In this document: positions 1,041 through 44,998 of the stretch, one piece after another | Layout: each line of letters opens with the position of its first letter | How positions within the stretch are numbered: position 1 is the first letter of the stretch | Source of the DNA: Kribbella sindirgiensis | GTDB lineage: Bacteria > Actinomycetota > Actinomycetes > Propionibacteriales > Kribbellaceae | DNA: 64,000 bases | Assembly (NCBI RefSeq): GCF_004331435.1 | Contig: NZ_SJKA01000014.1 | Location: 62,001 to 126,000 of the forward strand | Direction of reading: 5' to 3' | Notes under the pieces: model-generated | Seen by the model: only the letters and a program-made list of their open reading frames with translations | Told to the model about the DNA's origin: nothing | Database searches by the model: none | Made by a program: the position numbers and the translations under genes

Positions 1041-2294
1041 ATGCCCTCGAACTTCGACCAGCCGTGGCCCGCGCGGGACGACATCCGGATCCGCGAGGTG
1101 AAGGCGATCGTCACGGCACCGCAAGGCATCCCGCTGGTGGTCGTGAAGATCGACACCACCGAGCCGGGCCTGTACGGGCTCGGATGCGCCACCTTCACGC
1201 AGCGTTGGAAGGCGGTCCAGACGTTCGTCGACGAGCACCTGTCGCGGCTGCTCGTCGGCCGCTACCCGGGTGACATCGGCGACCTCACCCGGCTGGCGTC
1301 GTACTCCGGGTACTGGCGCGGCGGACCGGTCACGAACAACGCGATCTCCGGCATCGACCAGGCGCTCTGGGACATCGCCGGCAAGCGCGCCGGTATGCCG
1401 GTGTACGAGCTGCTCGGCGGCAAGGTCCGCGCGGCCGCCGACACCTACATCCACGCCAGCGGGAAGACGATCGAGGACACGATCGACCACGCGCAGAAGC
1501 TGGTCACGCAGGGCTGGCGGCACATCCGCCTGCAGGTCTCGACACCGGGCGGCGGCGGGTACGGCGCTCCGCAGGTGCCGACGCTCTACCCGGATGCGCC
1601 GTACCGCAACGGCTGGTCGGCGCGCGACTACCTGCGGACGACGCCGGAGCTGTTTGCGGAGGCGCGACAGGCGCTACCCGACAACATCGAGCTGTTGCAC
1701 GACGTGCACTCGCGGCTGACGCCGAAGGAGGCCGTGCTGCTCGCGCGATCGCTCGAGCAGCACCGGCTGTTCTTTCTGGAGGATGTGCTCGCGCCTGAGC
1801 TGTGGGATCGGCTGCCTGAGGTACGGGCCGCCTCCCCGGTCCCGCTGGCCGTCGGCGAGCTCACGACGTCGTTCGGCGACGCGGTCCGGCTGATCCGGGA
1901 CGGCGGTGTCGACTTCATCCGCTCGCACGTCTCGGACATCGGCGGTCTCACCCCGGCCCGGAAACTGGCCGATCTCGCCGAGATCTCCGGTGTCCGGACG
2001 GCCTGGCACGGCCCCGGCGACACCTCGCCGATCGGCGCCGCGGCGAACGTCGCGCTGGACGTGACATCGGTTGCCTTCGGCATCCAAGAGGGGCACATCT
2101 ACAACGAGGCGACGTACGAGGTGTTCCCCGGAACCCTGCGGATCGAGGACGGCTGGCTGCGTCCGAACGACGCGCCCGGCTGGGGCATCGACGTCGACCT
2201 GGAGGCCGCGGCGCGTTATCCGGCGGAACTGTCCGGTCACGACGAGTGGGCAGCCGGGGTACGGCGCATCGACGGAGCGCTCGAAGCACCATGA
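1041..2294 (+). CDS. Enolase-superfamily sugar-acid dehydratase (ManD/RspA-like)
   Basis: This 417-residue protein has the mandelate racemase/enolase plan: an alpha/beta capping domain (about 15-130) and a TIM barrel. Metal ligands appear at Asp221 (LLHDVHSRL), Glu247 (FFLED) and Glu273 (AVGE). His323 sits in WHGPGDTSPIG, the arrangement seen in the D-mannonate dehydratase (ManD)/RspA subgroup. It may dehydrate D-mannonate or D-gluconate. Many ManD-group members have very low activity, so the physiological substrate is uncertain. It follows the SDR gene with no gap, consistent with consecutive steps of hexuronate breakdown. Confidence 0.85.
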   Translation: MPSNFDQPWPARDDIRIREVKAIVTAPQGIPLVVVKIDTTEPGLYGLGCATFTQRWKAVQTFVDEHLSRLLVGRYPGDIGDLTRLASYSGYWRGGPVTNNAISGIDQALWDIAGKRAGMPVYELLGGKVRAAADTYIHASGKTIEDTIDHAQKLVTQGWRHIRLQVSTPGGGGYGAPQVPTLYPDAPYRNGWSARDYLRTTPELFAEARQALPDNIELLHDVHSRLTPKEAVLLARSLEQHRLFFLEDVLAPELWDRLPEVRAASPVPLAVGELTTSFGDAVRLIRDGGVDFIRSHVSDIGGLTPARKLADLAEISGVRTAWHGPGDTSPIGAAANVALDVTSVAFGIQEGHIYNEATYEVFPGTLRIEDGWLRPNDAPGWGIDVDLEAAARYPAELSGHDEWAAGVRRIDGALEAP

Positions 2295-41299: not shown

Positions 41300-41321
41300 C
41301 CCGTACCGCGTGGTCGCTCTC

Positions 41322-41762
41322 GCTCCCCAAACCAGTTCGGGGACCATCTCGTCCGGGATCGGGGAGCCCTGCACCCCGGATACGGGAGGTGATCCTCCCC
41401 GAACCGGTTTGGGGCCCCGCGGCCCTTGGGAAGTGGTGGGTGGGACGTGGGGGTTCGCTCGGCTGCCCGGTCCCGGGGCGGACCCGAAGAGCGGGGATAC
41501 AAAGTTGCATATCGCGACGGTTTCGTTCCCACCAAGACAGCTCACGCGGGCCGACGACGCAGCCCGCTGCCGGGGCACCCTTCGCACGAGAAGGCCGCCG
41601 GACCCGTTCTATCCCGCTGGTGACCGACCGCCAGACCGATGGTGGGGGGTGGGGACAGGCAATGGTGACCGGGGACGGGCAATATCAGGTGCCCACTCAC
41701 CATTGCCTGTCTCACGACCCCGGATCGGGCTGGTCATCACCCACACATCGGACAGGAGAGCC
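41322..41762 (-). repeat. Structured intergenic repeat, copy B (inverted relative to copy A)
   Basis: Reverse-complemented, this segment resembles 12481-12784. It has the GGCTCTCCTGTCC start and a 15-bp perfect inverted repeat (arms 41654-41668 and 41697-41711, core CAGGCAATGGTGA). Two 18-bp units CCCC-N10-GGGG lie at 41397-41414 and 41325-41342. Copy B carries about 140 bp between these parts that copy A lacks. It lies between the DUF1905 and cysteine-hydrolase genes. No coding frame is convincing. Confidence 0.8.
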
Positions 41763-41822
41763 CTCAAAGACTGTCGGCGGTCGGGTCTAGCGTTCGCCGT
41801 ACACGTTTGGAGAGGAGCCGAG

Positions 41823-42374
41823 ATGTCCACGTTGTCCGATCGGCCGCACACGGCCGTGCTCGTGATCGACGTCCAGAACGGTGTCGTGGGGGAGGCGTAC
41901 GAGCGCGATCGCGTCGTCGCCAACATCAGCACCCTCGTCGGCAAGGCCCGCGCCGGGGGAGTCCCGGTCGTCTGGGTCCAGCACTCCAGCGAGCACCTCG
42001 TGAAGGACAGCGCCGAGTGGCAACTCGTGCCCGAGCTGTCCCGGGAGGGCTCGGAGTCGCTCGTCCACAAGACGTACGCCGACAGCTTCGAAGCGACCGA
42101 CCTGGAAGACGTCCTCGCCCGCGCCGGCATCGGCCACCTGATCGTCAGCGGCGCGCAGACCGACGAGTGCATCCGCTCGACGATCCACGGCGCGATGGTC
42201 CGCGGGTACGACGTGACCCTGGTCGCCGACGCCCACACCACCGAGGACCTGACCGAATGGGGCGCGCCGACGCCCGACAAGGTCATCGCCCACACCAACC
42301 TCTACTGGGAGAACCACCGAGCGCCGGGCCGCACCGCCACCGTCCAGAAGACCGATGAGATGACCTTCGGCTAG
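41823..42374 (+). CDS. Isochorismatase-like cysteine hydrolase
   Basis: The 183-residue protein has the isochorismatase/nicotinamidase fold: Asp in LVIDVQNGVV (about residue 16), Lys in VHKTYADSF, and GAQTDECIRST with the nucleophilic Cys near 118. Members hydrolyse amides such as nicotinamide or N-carbamoyl compounds. Substrate unknown. GGAG precedes the ATG; TAGCGT at 41788-41793 may be the -10. The ZTP riboswitch begins 13 bp after its stop. Confidence 0.9.
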   Translation: MSTLSDRPHTAVLVIDVQNGVVGEAYERDRVVANISTLVGKARAGGVPVVWVQHSSEHLVKDSAEWQLVPELSREGSESLVHKTYADSFEATDLEDVLARAGIGHLIVSGAQTDECIRSTIHGAMVRGYDVTLVADAHTTEDLTEWGAPTPDKVIAHTNLYWENHRAPGRTATVQKTDEMTFG

Positions 42375-42387
42375 CCGTTAAGGTGGC

Positions 42388-42458
42388 CGTACACGACTGG
42401 CGAGGGTGGGCCGGACCACCGGGGAGTGACGTGACAGGCATCGACCGCCTGGGTGCCT
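42388..42458 (+). ncRNA. ZTP (pfl) riboswitch
   Basis: The segment contains the ZTP core GACTGGCGA, a GGTGG/CCACC hairpin (42405-42420), ACCACCGGGGAGTGAC and CCGCCTGGG. P1 pairs CGT-A-CAC (42388-42394) with GTGACG (42426-42431). GGCG (42399-42402) pairs with CGCC (42446-42449) as the expected pseudoknot. P3 is AGGCA/TGCCT (42436-42440 with 42454-42458). The ligand of this class is ZMP/ZTP, a signal of low 10-formyl-tetrahydrofolate. It precedes the metallophosphoesterase gene by 27 nt. Confidence 0.92.
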
Positions 42459-42477
42459 AAGGCAACGACATCGAGGA

Positions 42478-42486
42478 GTCACGTCA
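42478..42486 (+). promoter_or_regulatory. Start-codon masking segment of the ZTP switch
   Basis: GTCACGTCA (42478-42486, including the A of the ATG and the end of the Shine-Dalgarno) is perfectly complementary to TGACGTGAC (42427-42435). That overlaps the 3' strand of riboswitch P1. The two pairings exclude each other, so ligand binding would free the start codon. TGCC (42454-42457) can also pair with GGCA at 42461-42464 instead of P3. Confidence 0.65.
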
Positions 42487-43361
42487 TGGTCCGGATCCTG
42501 CACCTGTCCGACACCCACGTGAGCCGCACCGGCCCGGACGAGGACGGAGTCGACGGAGTCAGCGCGCTCCGCGGTCTGCTGCACGACGTACGGCGGGTTC
42601 CAGACCTGGATCTGGTGGTGGTCAGTGGCGATATCGCGGACGACGGCTCGGCCGCAGGCTGTACGACGGTCCGCGACCTGGTCGGCCAGTTCGCCGCAGA
42701 GCGCGGCATCCCGCACGTGTACTGCACCGGCAACCACGATCGCCGCGAAGGCTTCACGGCCGCACTCGGCCACGGTCATCTCGGTCCGGACGGCGCACCG
42801 ATCGGCCGGGCCGCAGGCCTCGACGGCGTGATCGCGGCCGTCAGCTCGGTCGCCGGGCTGCGCGTGATCACCCTCGACAGCCTCGTCCCAGGCGAGACGT
42901 ACGGCGTACTCGGCCCCGACCAGCTGGACTGGCTAGCAGCCGAGCTGAGCACACCTGCACCGGCCGGGTCGATCGTCGTACTTCACCATCCACCGGTGTG
43001 GACGGACGCTGTGCCCTATCAGCGGTCCGCAGTACTTCAGGAGCCTGAGGCCCTAGGCGCTGTCCTGGCCGACACCGACGTGCAGGCAGTCCTGTGCGGA
43101 CACCTACATCACCAACTGACCGCCCAACTGGCGAACAAACCGGTCTGGGTAACGCCAGGCGTCATCACCCGAATCGACCTCACCGCGCCGAGTGCGCTGG
43201 TCCGCGGTGTGCTCGGCGCGGGCGCAACGATCGTCGAGCTCGGCAGAGCGTTCGGCCCGATGTTCCACACCGTGCACGCCCGCGATCCCCGGACCGGCAC
43301 GGAAGTCTACGTCTACGACCCGCAGACCGGCTCGGACACAACCGAGGAGGTCAGCGCCTGA
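42486..43361 (+). CDS. Metallophosphoesterase (calcineurin-like, CpdA-type)
   Basis: The 291-residue enzyme has the complete dimetal phosphoesterase motif set: DTH (residues 9-11, LSDTH), GDIADDG, GNHDRR, a VVLHHPP histidine and GHLHH. It resembles CpdA/3',5'-cyclic-nucleotide or related phosphodiesterases. ATG has GAGGAG at 7-nt spacing. Control by a ZTP riboswitch suggests a role in purine or one-carbon metabolism, for example on ZMP/ZTP-related nucleotides; this is inference. Its end overlaps a HAD gene relic. Confidence 0.92.
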   Translation: MVRILHLSDTHVSRTGPDEDGVDGVSALRGLLHDVRRVPDLDLVVVSGDIADDGSAAGCTTVRDLVGQFAAERGIPHVYCTGNHDRREGFTAALGHGHLGPDGAPIGRAAGLDGVIAAVSSVAGLRVITLDSLVPGETYGVLGPDQLDWLAAELSTPAPAGSIVVLHHPPVWTDAVPYQRSAVLQEPEALGAVLADTDVQAVLCGHLHHQLTAQLANKPVWVTPGVITRIDLTAPSALVRGVLGAGATIVELGRAFGPMFHTVHARDPRTGTEVYVYDPQTGSDTTEEVSA

Positions 43362-44119: not shown

Positions 44120-44998
44120 TCACCGCCCCGCGGACTCCTGTCGCGCGGACTCCTGGAGGGCGCTGACCAGGGCGGCGATCGGCGGTGGGTCGGGCGGTTC
44201 GCCGTACGTCGCGGCGTACACGTGGCGTAGGGAACCGGGCAGTTCGCTCGCGGTGATGCCTGCGACGTGGTGGGTGCGCAGCGCAAGGCCCGGCATCGTC
44301 GTCACGCCGAGGCCGGCCGCGACAAGCGCCTGCATCACGACCATGTCGTCGGAGGTGTAGCCGATCCGTGGTGCGTAGCCCTCGGCAGCGCACAGCGCGA
44401 TCAGGTGGCTGCGGCACCGATCGCACCCGGCGATCCAGGTCGCGTCGCGCAGGCCGGCCAGCGTGGACGGTCCGTTCGACAGCACGTACAGCGGATCGTC
44501 GACGAGATGGTGCAGCCGTACGCCGGCCGGCTCGGGCGCGGTCTCGTCGTACCGGAAGACGATCGCCACGTCGACCTTCCCGGTGCGGAGCAGCTCGAAC
44601 GCTTCGGGTGGATGGGTGTCGACCAGGTTGACCTCCAGCCCGGGATGCTTCGCGGCCAGCTGGGCGAGGGCGGCCGGAACGAGTGCTCCGATCGCCGACG
44701 AGAAACCGGCCAAACGGATCCGGCCCGCGCTCAGACCGACGTGCGCCGCCAACTCGGCATCGACGGCGTCGATCCGGCCGATGATCTCGGCGGCGCGGTC
44801 CGCGAGGAGCCGCCCGGCCTCGGTCAACCGGATGCCGCGCCCGACGCGCTGCAGCAGTTGCGCGCCGGTCTCGGCTTCCAGGCGCGCGAGGTGGTGCGTG
44901 ACGGACGGCTGGGAGTAGTGCAACTCGCGCGCGGCCGCGGTCACCGAGCCGTGGCGTGCGACCGCGTCGATCACGCGCAACCTCGTGACATCGAGCAT
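44120..44998 (-). CDS. LysR-family transcriptional regulator
   Basis: 292 residues: N-terminal LysR winged helix (RLRVIDAVARHGSVTAAARELHYSQPSVTHHLARLE) and a periplasmic-binding-like effector domain. GCDRCRSH in the effector domain carries two close cysteines that could respond to thiols or oxidation. It is divergent from a cysteine-dioxygenase-like gene, which is its most likely target. Confidence 0.92.
   Translation of the reverse strand: MLDVTRLRVIDAVARHGSVTAAARELHYSQPSVTHHLARLEAETGAQLLQRVGRGIRLTEAGRLLADRAAEIIGRIDAVDAELAAHVGLSAGRIRLAGFSSAIGALVPAALAQLAAKHPGLEVNLVDTHPPEAFELLRTGKVDVAIVFRYDETAPEPAGVRLHHLVDDPLYVLSNGPSTLAGLRDATWIAGCDRCRSHLIALCAAEGYAPRIGYTSDDMVVMQALVAAGLGVTTMPGLALRTHHVAGITASELPGSLRHVYAATYGEPPDPPPIAALVSALQESARQESAGR

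Follow-up and report, generated by a model that had tools for sequence, protein, structure and literature searches.

A ZTP riboswitch upstream of a metallophosphoesterase gene in Kribbella sindirgiensis and other actinomycetes

Riboswitch, promoter and enzyme at the locus

The window analyzed here, a 64,000-nucleotide (64-kb) stretch of the Kribbella sindirgiensis genome, contains a riboswitch of the ZMP-ZTP class (pfl RNA motif; ZMP is 5-aminoimidazole-4-carboxamide ribonucleotide, AICAR, and ZTP its triphosphate) in the leader of a metallophosphoesterase gene. All features described below lie on the forward strand. The aptamer matches Rfam family RF01750 at positions 42383-42461 (cmscan; E = 5.2e-4; model positions 1-86) with 44.5 bits, which exceeds the gathering score of 39, and it is the sole Rfam match above threshold in the window. 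The initial annotation had called a ZTP riboswitch at this site and had named the Rfam comparison as its check; the call holds, and the core lies where it had been placed. The pseudoknot pairs GGCG (42399-42402) with CGCC (42446-42449), as read from the Rfam match and the pair listing, and the hairpins P2 (42405-42420; strands 42405-42409 and 42416-42420) and P3 (42436-42458; strands 42436-42440 and 42454-42458) consist of standard pairs throughout. In models of the ZTP class, P3 is the part of the aptamer that the downstream expression platform rearranges. In a set of 28 leaders (the 27 switch-bearing leaders described below plus that of Micromonospora yasonensis L122), P3 pairs 1, 2, 4 and 5, numbered from the innermost outward, are formed in every leader and pair 3 in 27.

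At the 5' edge of the aptamer lies a -10-like box, TAAGGT (42379-42384), which is the probable promoter of the switch and its gene. A TANNNT box stands exactly 11 nucleotides 5' of ACTGGC in 26 of the 28 leaders, and 12 and 13 nucleotides 5' of it in the remaining two. Assuming a 6-base spacer, we infer a transcription start at the A of ACACGACTGG, which is position 42391 here. Because transcription seemingly begins at the first nucleotide of the aptamer, P1 is possibly just three base pairs long: its 5' strand CAC (42392-42394; present in 28 of 28 leaders) pairs with GUG (42426-42428), a partner found in all 23 leaders of the set used for accessibility calculations. The six-base P1 described in the initial annotation can be recovered from the Rfam alignment, in which we read six standard pairs and one bulge; however, the other three pairs involve 42388-42390, 5' of the predicted start, and only CAC/GUG would be left if transcription begins near 42391. 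Between the aptamer match and the start codon there are only 24 bases, and the Shine-Dalgarno (SD) sequence GAGGAG (42473-42478; 7 nucleotides 5' of the ATG) sits inside that gap.

The gene (42486-43361) encodes a 291-residue protein resembling class III phosphodiesterases, and its match to PF00149 (calcineurin-like metallophosphoesterase; 1.7e-17) confirms the target that had been proposed from the open reading frame. Its AlphaFold model has a predicted local distance difference test score (pLDDT) of 94.8, and the best fold in the PDB is that of Rv0805 (3ib7; 35% identity, Foldseek E = 7.5e-26). The metal-site residues D9, D49, N83, H84, H168, H206 and H208 are invariant across 62 aligned enzymes. 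The class III motif D-Xn-GD-Xn-GNH[E/D]-Xn-H-Xn-GHxH (PMC4222275) is present as D9, G48-D49, G82-N83-H84-D85, H168 and G205-H206-x-H208, and is likewise invariant in the 62 sequences. The enzyme shares this fold and these metal-site motifs with Rv0805 and the class III phosphodiesterases CpdA and SpdA, but it falls far below the NCBIfam equivalog cut-offs for both CpdA (3',5'-cyclic AMP phosphodiesterase, NF008359; 73.1 bits versus 225) and SpdA (2',3'-cyclic nucleoside monophosphate phosphodiesterase, NF050112; 65.2 bits versus 400). It is a distant relative of Rv0805.

Distribution and history of the switch and its enzyme

The window genome (8.9 Mb) has three further RF01750 matches above threshold, which, according to our reading of the translations, precede folD (L001), a purH-like AICAR formyltransferase gene (L002) and glyA (L003). 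These three conform to the purine, folate and one-carbon genes usual for the class, whereas the phosphoesterase is, as the initial annotation remarked, an unusual target. RF01750 matches occur in all 38 Kribbella genomes searched, 121 in total when the per-genome counts are summed. From the top-scoring tblastn match in each locus retrieved, 53 of the 121 were assigned: 21 to purH-like genes, 20 to folD, 6 to glyA, 5 to folP-like genes and one, the window's own, to the phosphoesterase, which is the odd one out among the assigned loci. Seven additional phosphoesterase switches in the genus were deduced from matching switch and enzyme coordinates. As an observation apart, the folP-like (dihydropteroate synthase-like) genes with ZTP switches (L014, L021, L047, L054 and L059) belong to a target group outside the five commonest that a 2010 study names (PMC2864571).

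The link between switch and phosphoesterase is unusual yet conserved. The nearest named orthologues of the enzyme are from Kribbella species; it was found in 8 of the 38 Kribbella genomes (E <= 1e-30), and all eight have an RF01750 match upstream, its end separated by 23-36 bases from the start of the aligned protein. Among named genomes, 51 loci were retrieved, comprising four Kribbella loci already counted, 32 that were scanned with Rfam and 15 weak relatives left unscanned. The switch is present at 12 of the 32 (Actinopolymorpha, 1; Micromonospora, 3; Actinoplanes, 3; Actinocatenispora, 1; Catellatospora, 4). Among 20 loci sampled from the order, three have it too; one of the three (L076) comes from a genus group in which another locus encodes a protein identical to one from Nocardioides lianchengensis. 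Within the Micromonosporaceae the enzyme occurs in 37 of 354 genomes (E <= 1e-80), and 16 of the 30 loci fetched and scanned carry the switch; the named-genome, order and Micromonosporaceae sets overlap. A class-level search of 394 genomes added six loci, none with a switch. Neither an Rfam match above threshold nor the sequence motif was found at the orthologues in Mumia, five named Nocardioides, Jiangella, Phytomonospora, Streptomyces and Asanoa. Once identical proteins were collapsed, 82 distinct enzymes remained, and 27 of these have the switch as judged by the sequence motif. The M. yasonensis leader L122 shows the motif, has no Rfam match above threshold and belongs to a gene that is split in the assembly.

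Two observations concern orthologues that lack the switch. At five such loci (L070, L094, L095, L103 and L111) a TANNNT-like box is visible by eye a few bases 5' of the start codon, as if the transcripts were leaderless. At another (L073), a Guanidine-III riboswitch (RF01763, 52.7 bits; 1398-1462, reverse strand) lies just 3' of the phosphoesterase gene on the same strand.

In a tree of 69 enzymes, one branch (support 82/98) sets apart a group of 48 rows that includes all 27 switch-bearing proteins, and the switch label needs 8 changes, compared with 21.7 in shuffles. A single origin is neither shown nor needed, because the well-supported branches force the label to change at least three times and the tree leaves many deep forks open. 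Three Kribbella loci (L040, L041 and L099) fall outside the clade of the window enzyme, and L075, from the genus group of Actinopolymorpha pittospori, is placed among the Micromonosporaceae; these placements suggest transfer.

Open-frame clustering around the 27 switch-bearing loci revealed no conserved neighbor gene: the only clusters found in more than three loci are the enzyme frame itself and antisense frames overlapping it. Distant conserved neighbors could be missed because the flanks are uneven (about 1.5 kb in some loci, up to 4 kb in others, and shorter at contig ends). Two genomes display sites at which switch and gene are missing. In G474, whose flanks are 89% identical, the sequences that border the locus of Micromonospora sp. 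MP36 adjoin directly, without the 1034 bases (L100 3844-4877) that carry the switch and gene. In G023, a member of the genus, the match runs up to window position 42368 and, after 14 bases, resumes at 44145; thus the switch, the enzyme and the following stretch are absent there. Given such sites and the lack of a conserved neighbor, the unit behaves as a self-contained cassette, and switch and enzyme have apparently been gained and lost together. A functional guess based on an operon with the upstream isochorismatase-type gene was abandoned because that gene occurs in many Kribbella genomes with no enzyme beside it. Window positions 41320-41790 contain a dispersed intergenic repeat with the inverted repeat CCCCAAACCAGTTCGGGG ... 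CCCCGAACCGGTTTGGGG; 59 matching pieces, including the window copy, occur in its own genome (E 1e-5), and further ones elsewhere in the genus.

Control of translation

The leader is probably a translational ON switch. We hold with good confidence that a genuine ZTP riboswitch, on a transcript starting at or near the first aptamer nucleotide, turns on translation of the metallophosphoesterase upon ZMP/ZTP build-up; here we infer the ligand, the ON direction and the translational level of control. A shortage of 10-formyl-tetrahydrofolate or a block in AICAR formylation would cause ZMP/ZTP to accumulate. For a large part of the family, a hairpin that pairs the SD sequence with a strand including 3' bases of P3 would most likely form the OFF state; ligand binding would stabilize P3 and the pseudoknot, free the ribosome-binding site and allow the binuclear metallophosphoesterase to be translated. 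In the window genome, a private nine-base-pair helix may replace the missing SD hairpin. Expression under ZTP switches increases with ligand (PMC2864571; PMC7337938), and in published models of the class the downstream platform rearranges the aptamer (PMC13273304).

For the 28 leaders, folding was carried out on the segment that runs from the 3' arm of P3 to the start codon. At least three SD bases are paired in 26 of them and at least two P3 bases are engaged in 24. Since linker shuffles nearly equal the latter figure (mean 18.6, maximum 24), the plain count of SD/P3 overlap was set aside as strong evidence, and folding energies, pair variation and a comparison with purH leaders were used instead. 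The SD hairpin reaches -11 kcal/mol or lower in 17 of the 28 leaders, all 17 of which use at least two P3 3' bases, and one internal pair of the hairpin varies (G-C in 7, A-U in 7 and G-U in 2). Relative to shuffles, the folding energy has a z of -1.5 or lower in 13 of the 28, the best being L162 at 5.3 standard deviations. An SD hairpin starting in the 3' arm of P3 is formed by all 13 purH-like leaders folded (-13.3 to -15.7 kcal/mol), and one starting at or in that arm by all three folP-like leaders folded. Many phosphoesterase leaders thus resemble the Kribbella purH-like ZTP leaders in pairing the SD sequence through a P3-3'-arm strand; the window leader differs from these in lacking the SD hairpin and in having its private helix over the AUG.

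Several results weigh against this account, among them the modest excess of the SD/P3 overlap over shuffles. The energy z is positive in 8 of the 28 leaders (up to +2.7 in L114), and enforcing the aptamer raises SD accessibility by at least 0.2 in only 12 of 23. Three glyA leaders folded without an SD hairpin from the P3 arm, and two folD leaders folded weakly (-7.3 and -9.6). The window leader itself has no SD hairpin, with one of six SD bases paired and no overlap with P3; within its clade only L092 attains -11 kcal/mol (z -0.68). As for the promoter, scanning 42300-42600 with a strict sigma-70 consensus gave no hit, and hence there is no good -35 box.

What the window leader does possess is the complementarity noted in the initial annotation: TGACGTGAC (42427-42435) is the perfect complement of GTCACGTCA (42478-42486), forming nine Watson-Crick pairs over the ribosome-binding site and AUG with a duplex energy of -16.8 kcal/mol (37 C, default parameters). 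When the post-aptamer tail was shuffled by dinucleotides, at least nine base pairs arose anywhere in the aptamer in 17 of 5000 cases and in the segment spanning GGGGAG to P3 in 3 of 5000. For this leader a chance origin is unlikely; across 28 leaders about 0.18 such matches would be expected by chance. In this genome alone, the OFF state could be the helix itself, with the ligand favoring P1, breaking the helix and freeing the AUG, a reading that is tenable but doubtful. It accords with the absence of the usual SD hairpin and with the free minimum-energy fold of the leader, which contains the helix. It also accords with calculations in which P1 (3 bp), P2 and P3 were imposed and the pseudoknot strands held unpaired. 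For transcripts ending at 42488, 42505 and 42520, the AUG was then unpaired with a mean probability of 0.69 instead of 0.43, 0.64 instead of 0.03 and 0.55 instead of 0.20, respectively. Accessibility of the SD sequence stayed nearly flat (0.61, becoming 0.63, 0.61 and 0.66), and in a folding run begun three bases further 5' the AUG value rose less, from 0.31 to 0.37. The predicted direction fits an ON switch; its magnitude varies with the folding assumptions.

However, with a 3-bp P1 the aptamer and the helix would be less exclusive than had been proposed. Seven of the nine helix pairs persist under the enforced aptamer in transcripts ending at 42488 and 42505, although not at 42520, and the SD sequence is equally open. 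The overlap of the two elements, originally given as five of six bases of the P1 3' strand, would comprise two of three with a 3-bp P1. A helix acting in this way would also leave P3 intact, unlike the published platform models that rearrange the aptamer (PMC13273304). Moreover, the survey of other genomes proposed in the initial annotation did not find the nine-base pairing in any of the 27 relatives, four of which have 74-76% protein identity; in the same stretch their longest runs are 2-5 bases, or at most 7 counting G-U pairs. A conserved form of the helix was consequently dropped: the opening of the AUG that had been predicted finds agreement in silico, but not as a start-codon switch shared by the family. 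Comparable pairing energy is not unique to the window, since interrupted duplexes have energies down to -15.2 kcal/mol in two relatives (L101 and L149) and to -14.9 kcal/mol in L162, and a few relatives may have a looser version of the start-codon pairing.

The SD sequence of the window leader lies outside any strong hairpin, and the Rfam score of this switch is the lowest among the four in its genome. Both facts would fit a leader that no longer switches here, the aptamer being conserved, the platform decayed and translation constitutive. We consider this improbable, because the aptamer core, pseudoknot, P3 and -10 spacing are all intact and the start codon is still covered by a potential helix. 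Transcriptional control, in which ligand binding would alter termination ahead of the gene, is very improbable: no terminator-like site was found in 42300-42600, and the 24 bases between aptamer match and start codon already include the SD sequence. Folding of the platform also yielded a candidate alternative mini-hairpin, UGCC-UAA-GGCA (42454-42464), a weak structure of 4 bp that would unpair P3. In the window clade, GGCA just 3' of P3 might pair with the 3' arm of that hairpin, in competition with P3, and variants are visible by eye in four relatives.

Relation to known systems and possible role of the enzyme

The ZTP riboswitch class was reportedly validated by Kim et al. in 2015. The window element resembles the class (RF01750) in its core, pseudoknot, P2, P3 and 5' leader position, and in being accompanied within its genome by sister switches of folD, a purH-like gene and glyA; it differs in its metallophosphoesterase target and perhaps in a P1 of three base pairs. 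A literature search for ZTP/pfl riboswitches and phosphoesterases, which did not extend to the gene lists of Kim et al., found no report, and neither did one for ZTP riboswitches and Actinobacteria. Judged by titles, the papers found on ZTP, riboswitches and phosphodiesterases do not deal with this association. The locus represents a conserved target gene, for which the literature searched yielded no report, of a known riboswitch class with a standard aptamer, rather than a new kind of system; the nine-base-pair switch of the window is one possible local solution.

No firm substrate is assigned to the enzyme because substrates of class III phosphodiesterases cannot be predicted by simple sequence inspection (PMC4222275); Rv0805, for instance, is about 150 times more active toward 2',3'- than 3',5'-cyclic nucleotides (PMC4222275). 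A nucleotide or cyclic-nucleotide phosphodiesterase that aids purine recycling is our foremost, though tentative, suggestion. The enzyme could possibly have some other substrate, outside the purine-recycling, Z-nucleotide and pterin/folate options. Hydrolysis of Z-nucleotides seems unlikely, and action on pterin or folate-linked phosphates is a rather poor prospect.

Little is known about how bacteria remove ZTP. It is a long shot that the enzyme hydrolyzes Z-nucleotides, be it ZTP, ZMP or a cyclic form, with a promoter, a ZTP sensor and a ZTP-removing enzyme then traveling together between actinomycetes; if true, this would make the cassette a self-contained off-switch for the alarmone. ZTP switches flag genes that respond to a shortage of 10-formyl-folate, and the retention of a phosphoesterase behind such a switch across several genera points to an enzymatic reaction within the folate-shortage response for which our searches found no description. 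The link offers a handle on the possible clearing of ZMP/ZTP, or of purine or folate intermediates that accumulate alongside. Through the switch the enzyme is tied to the folate/purine-stress response, and a step of the ZTP response becomes testable.
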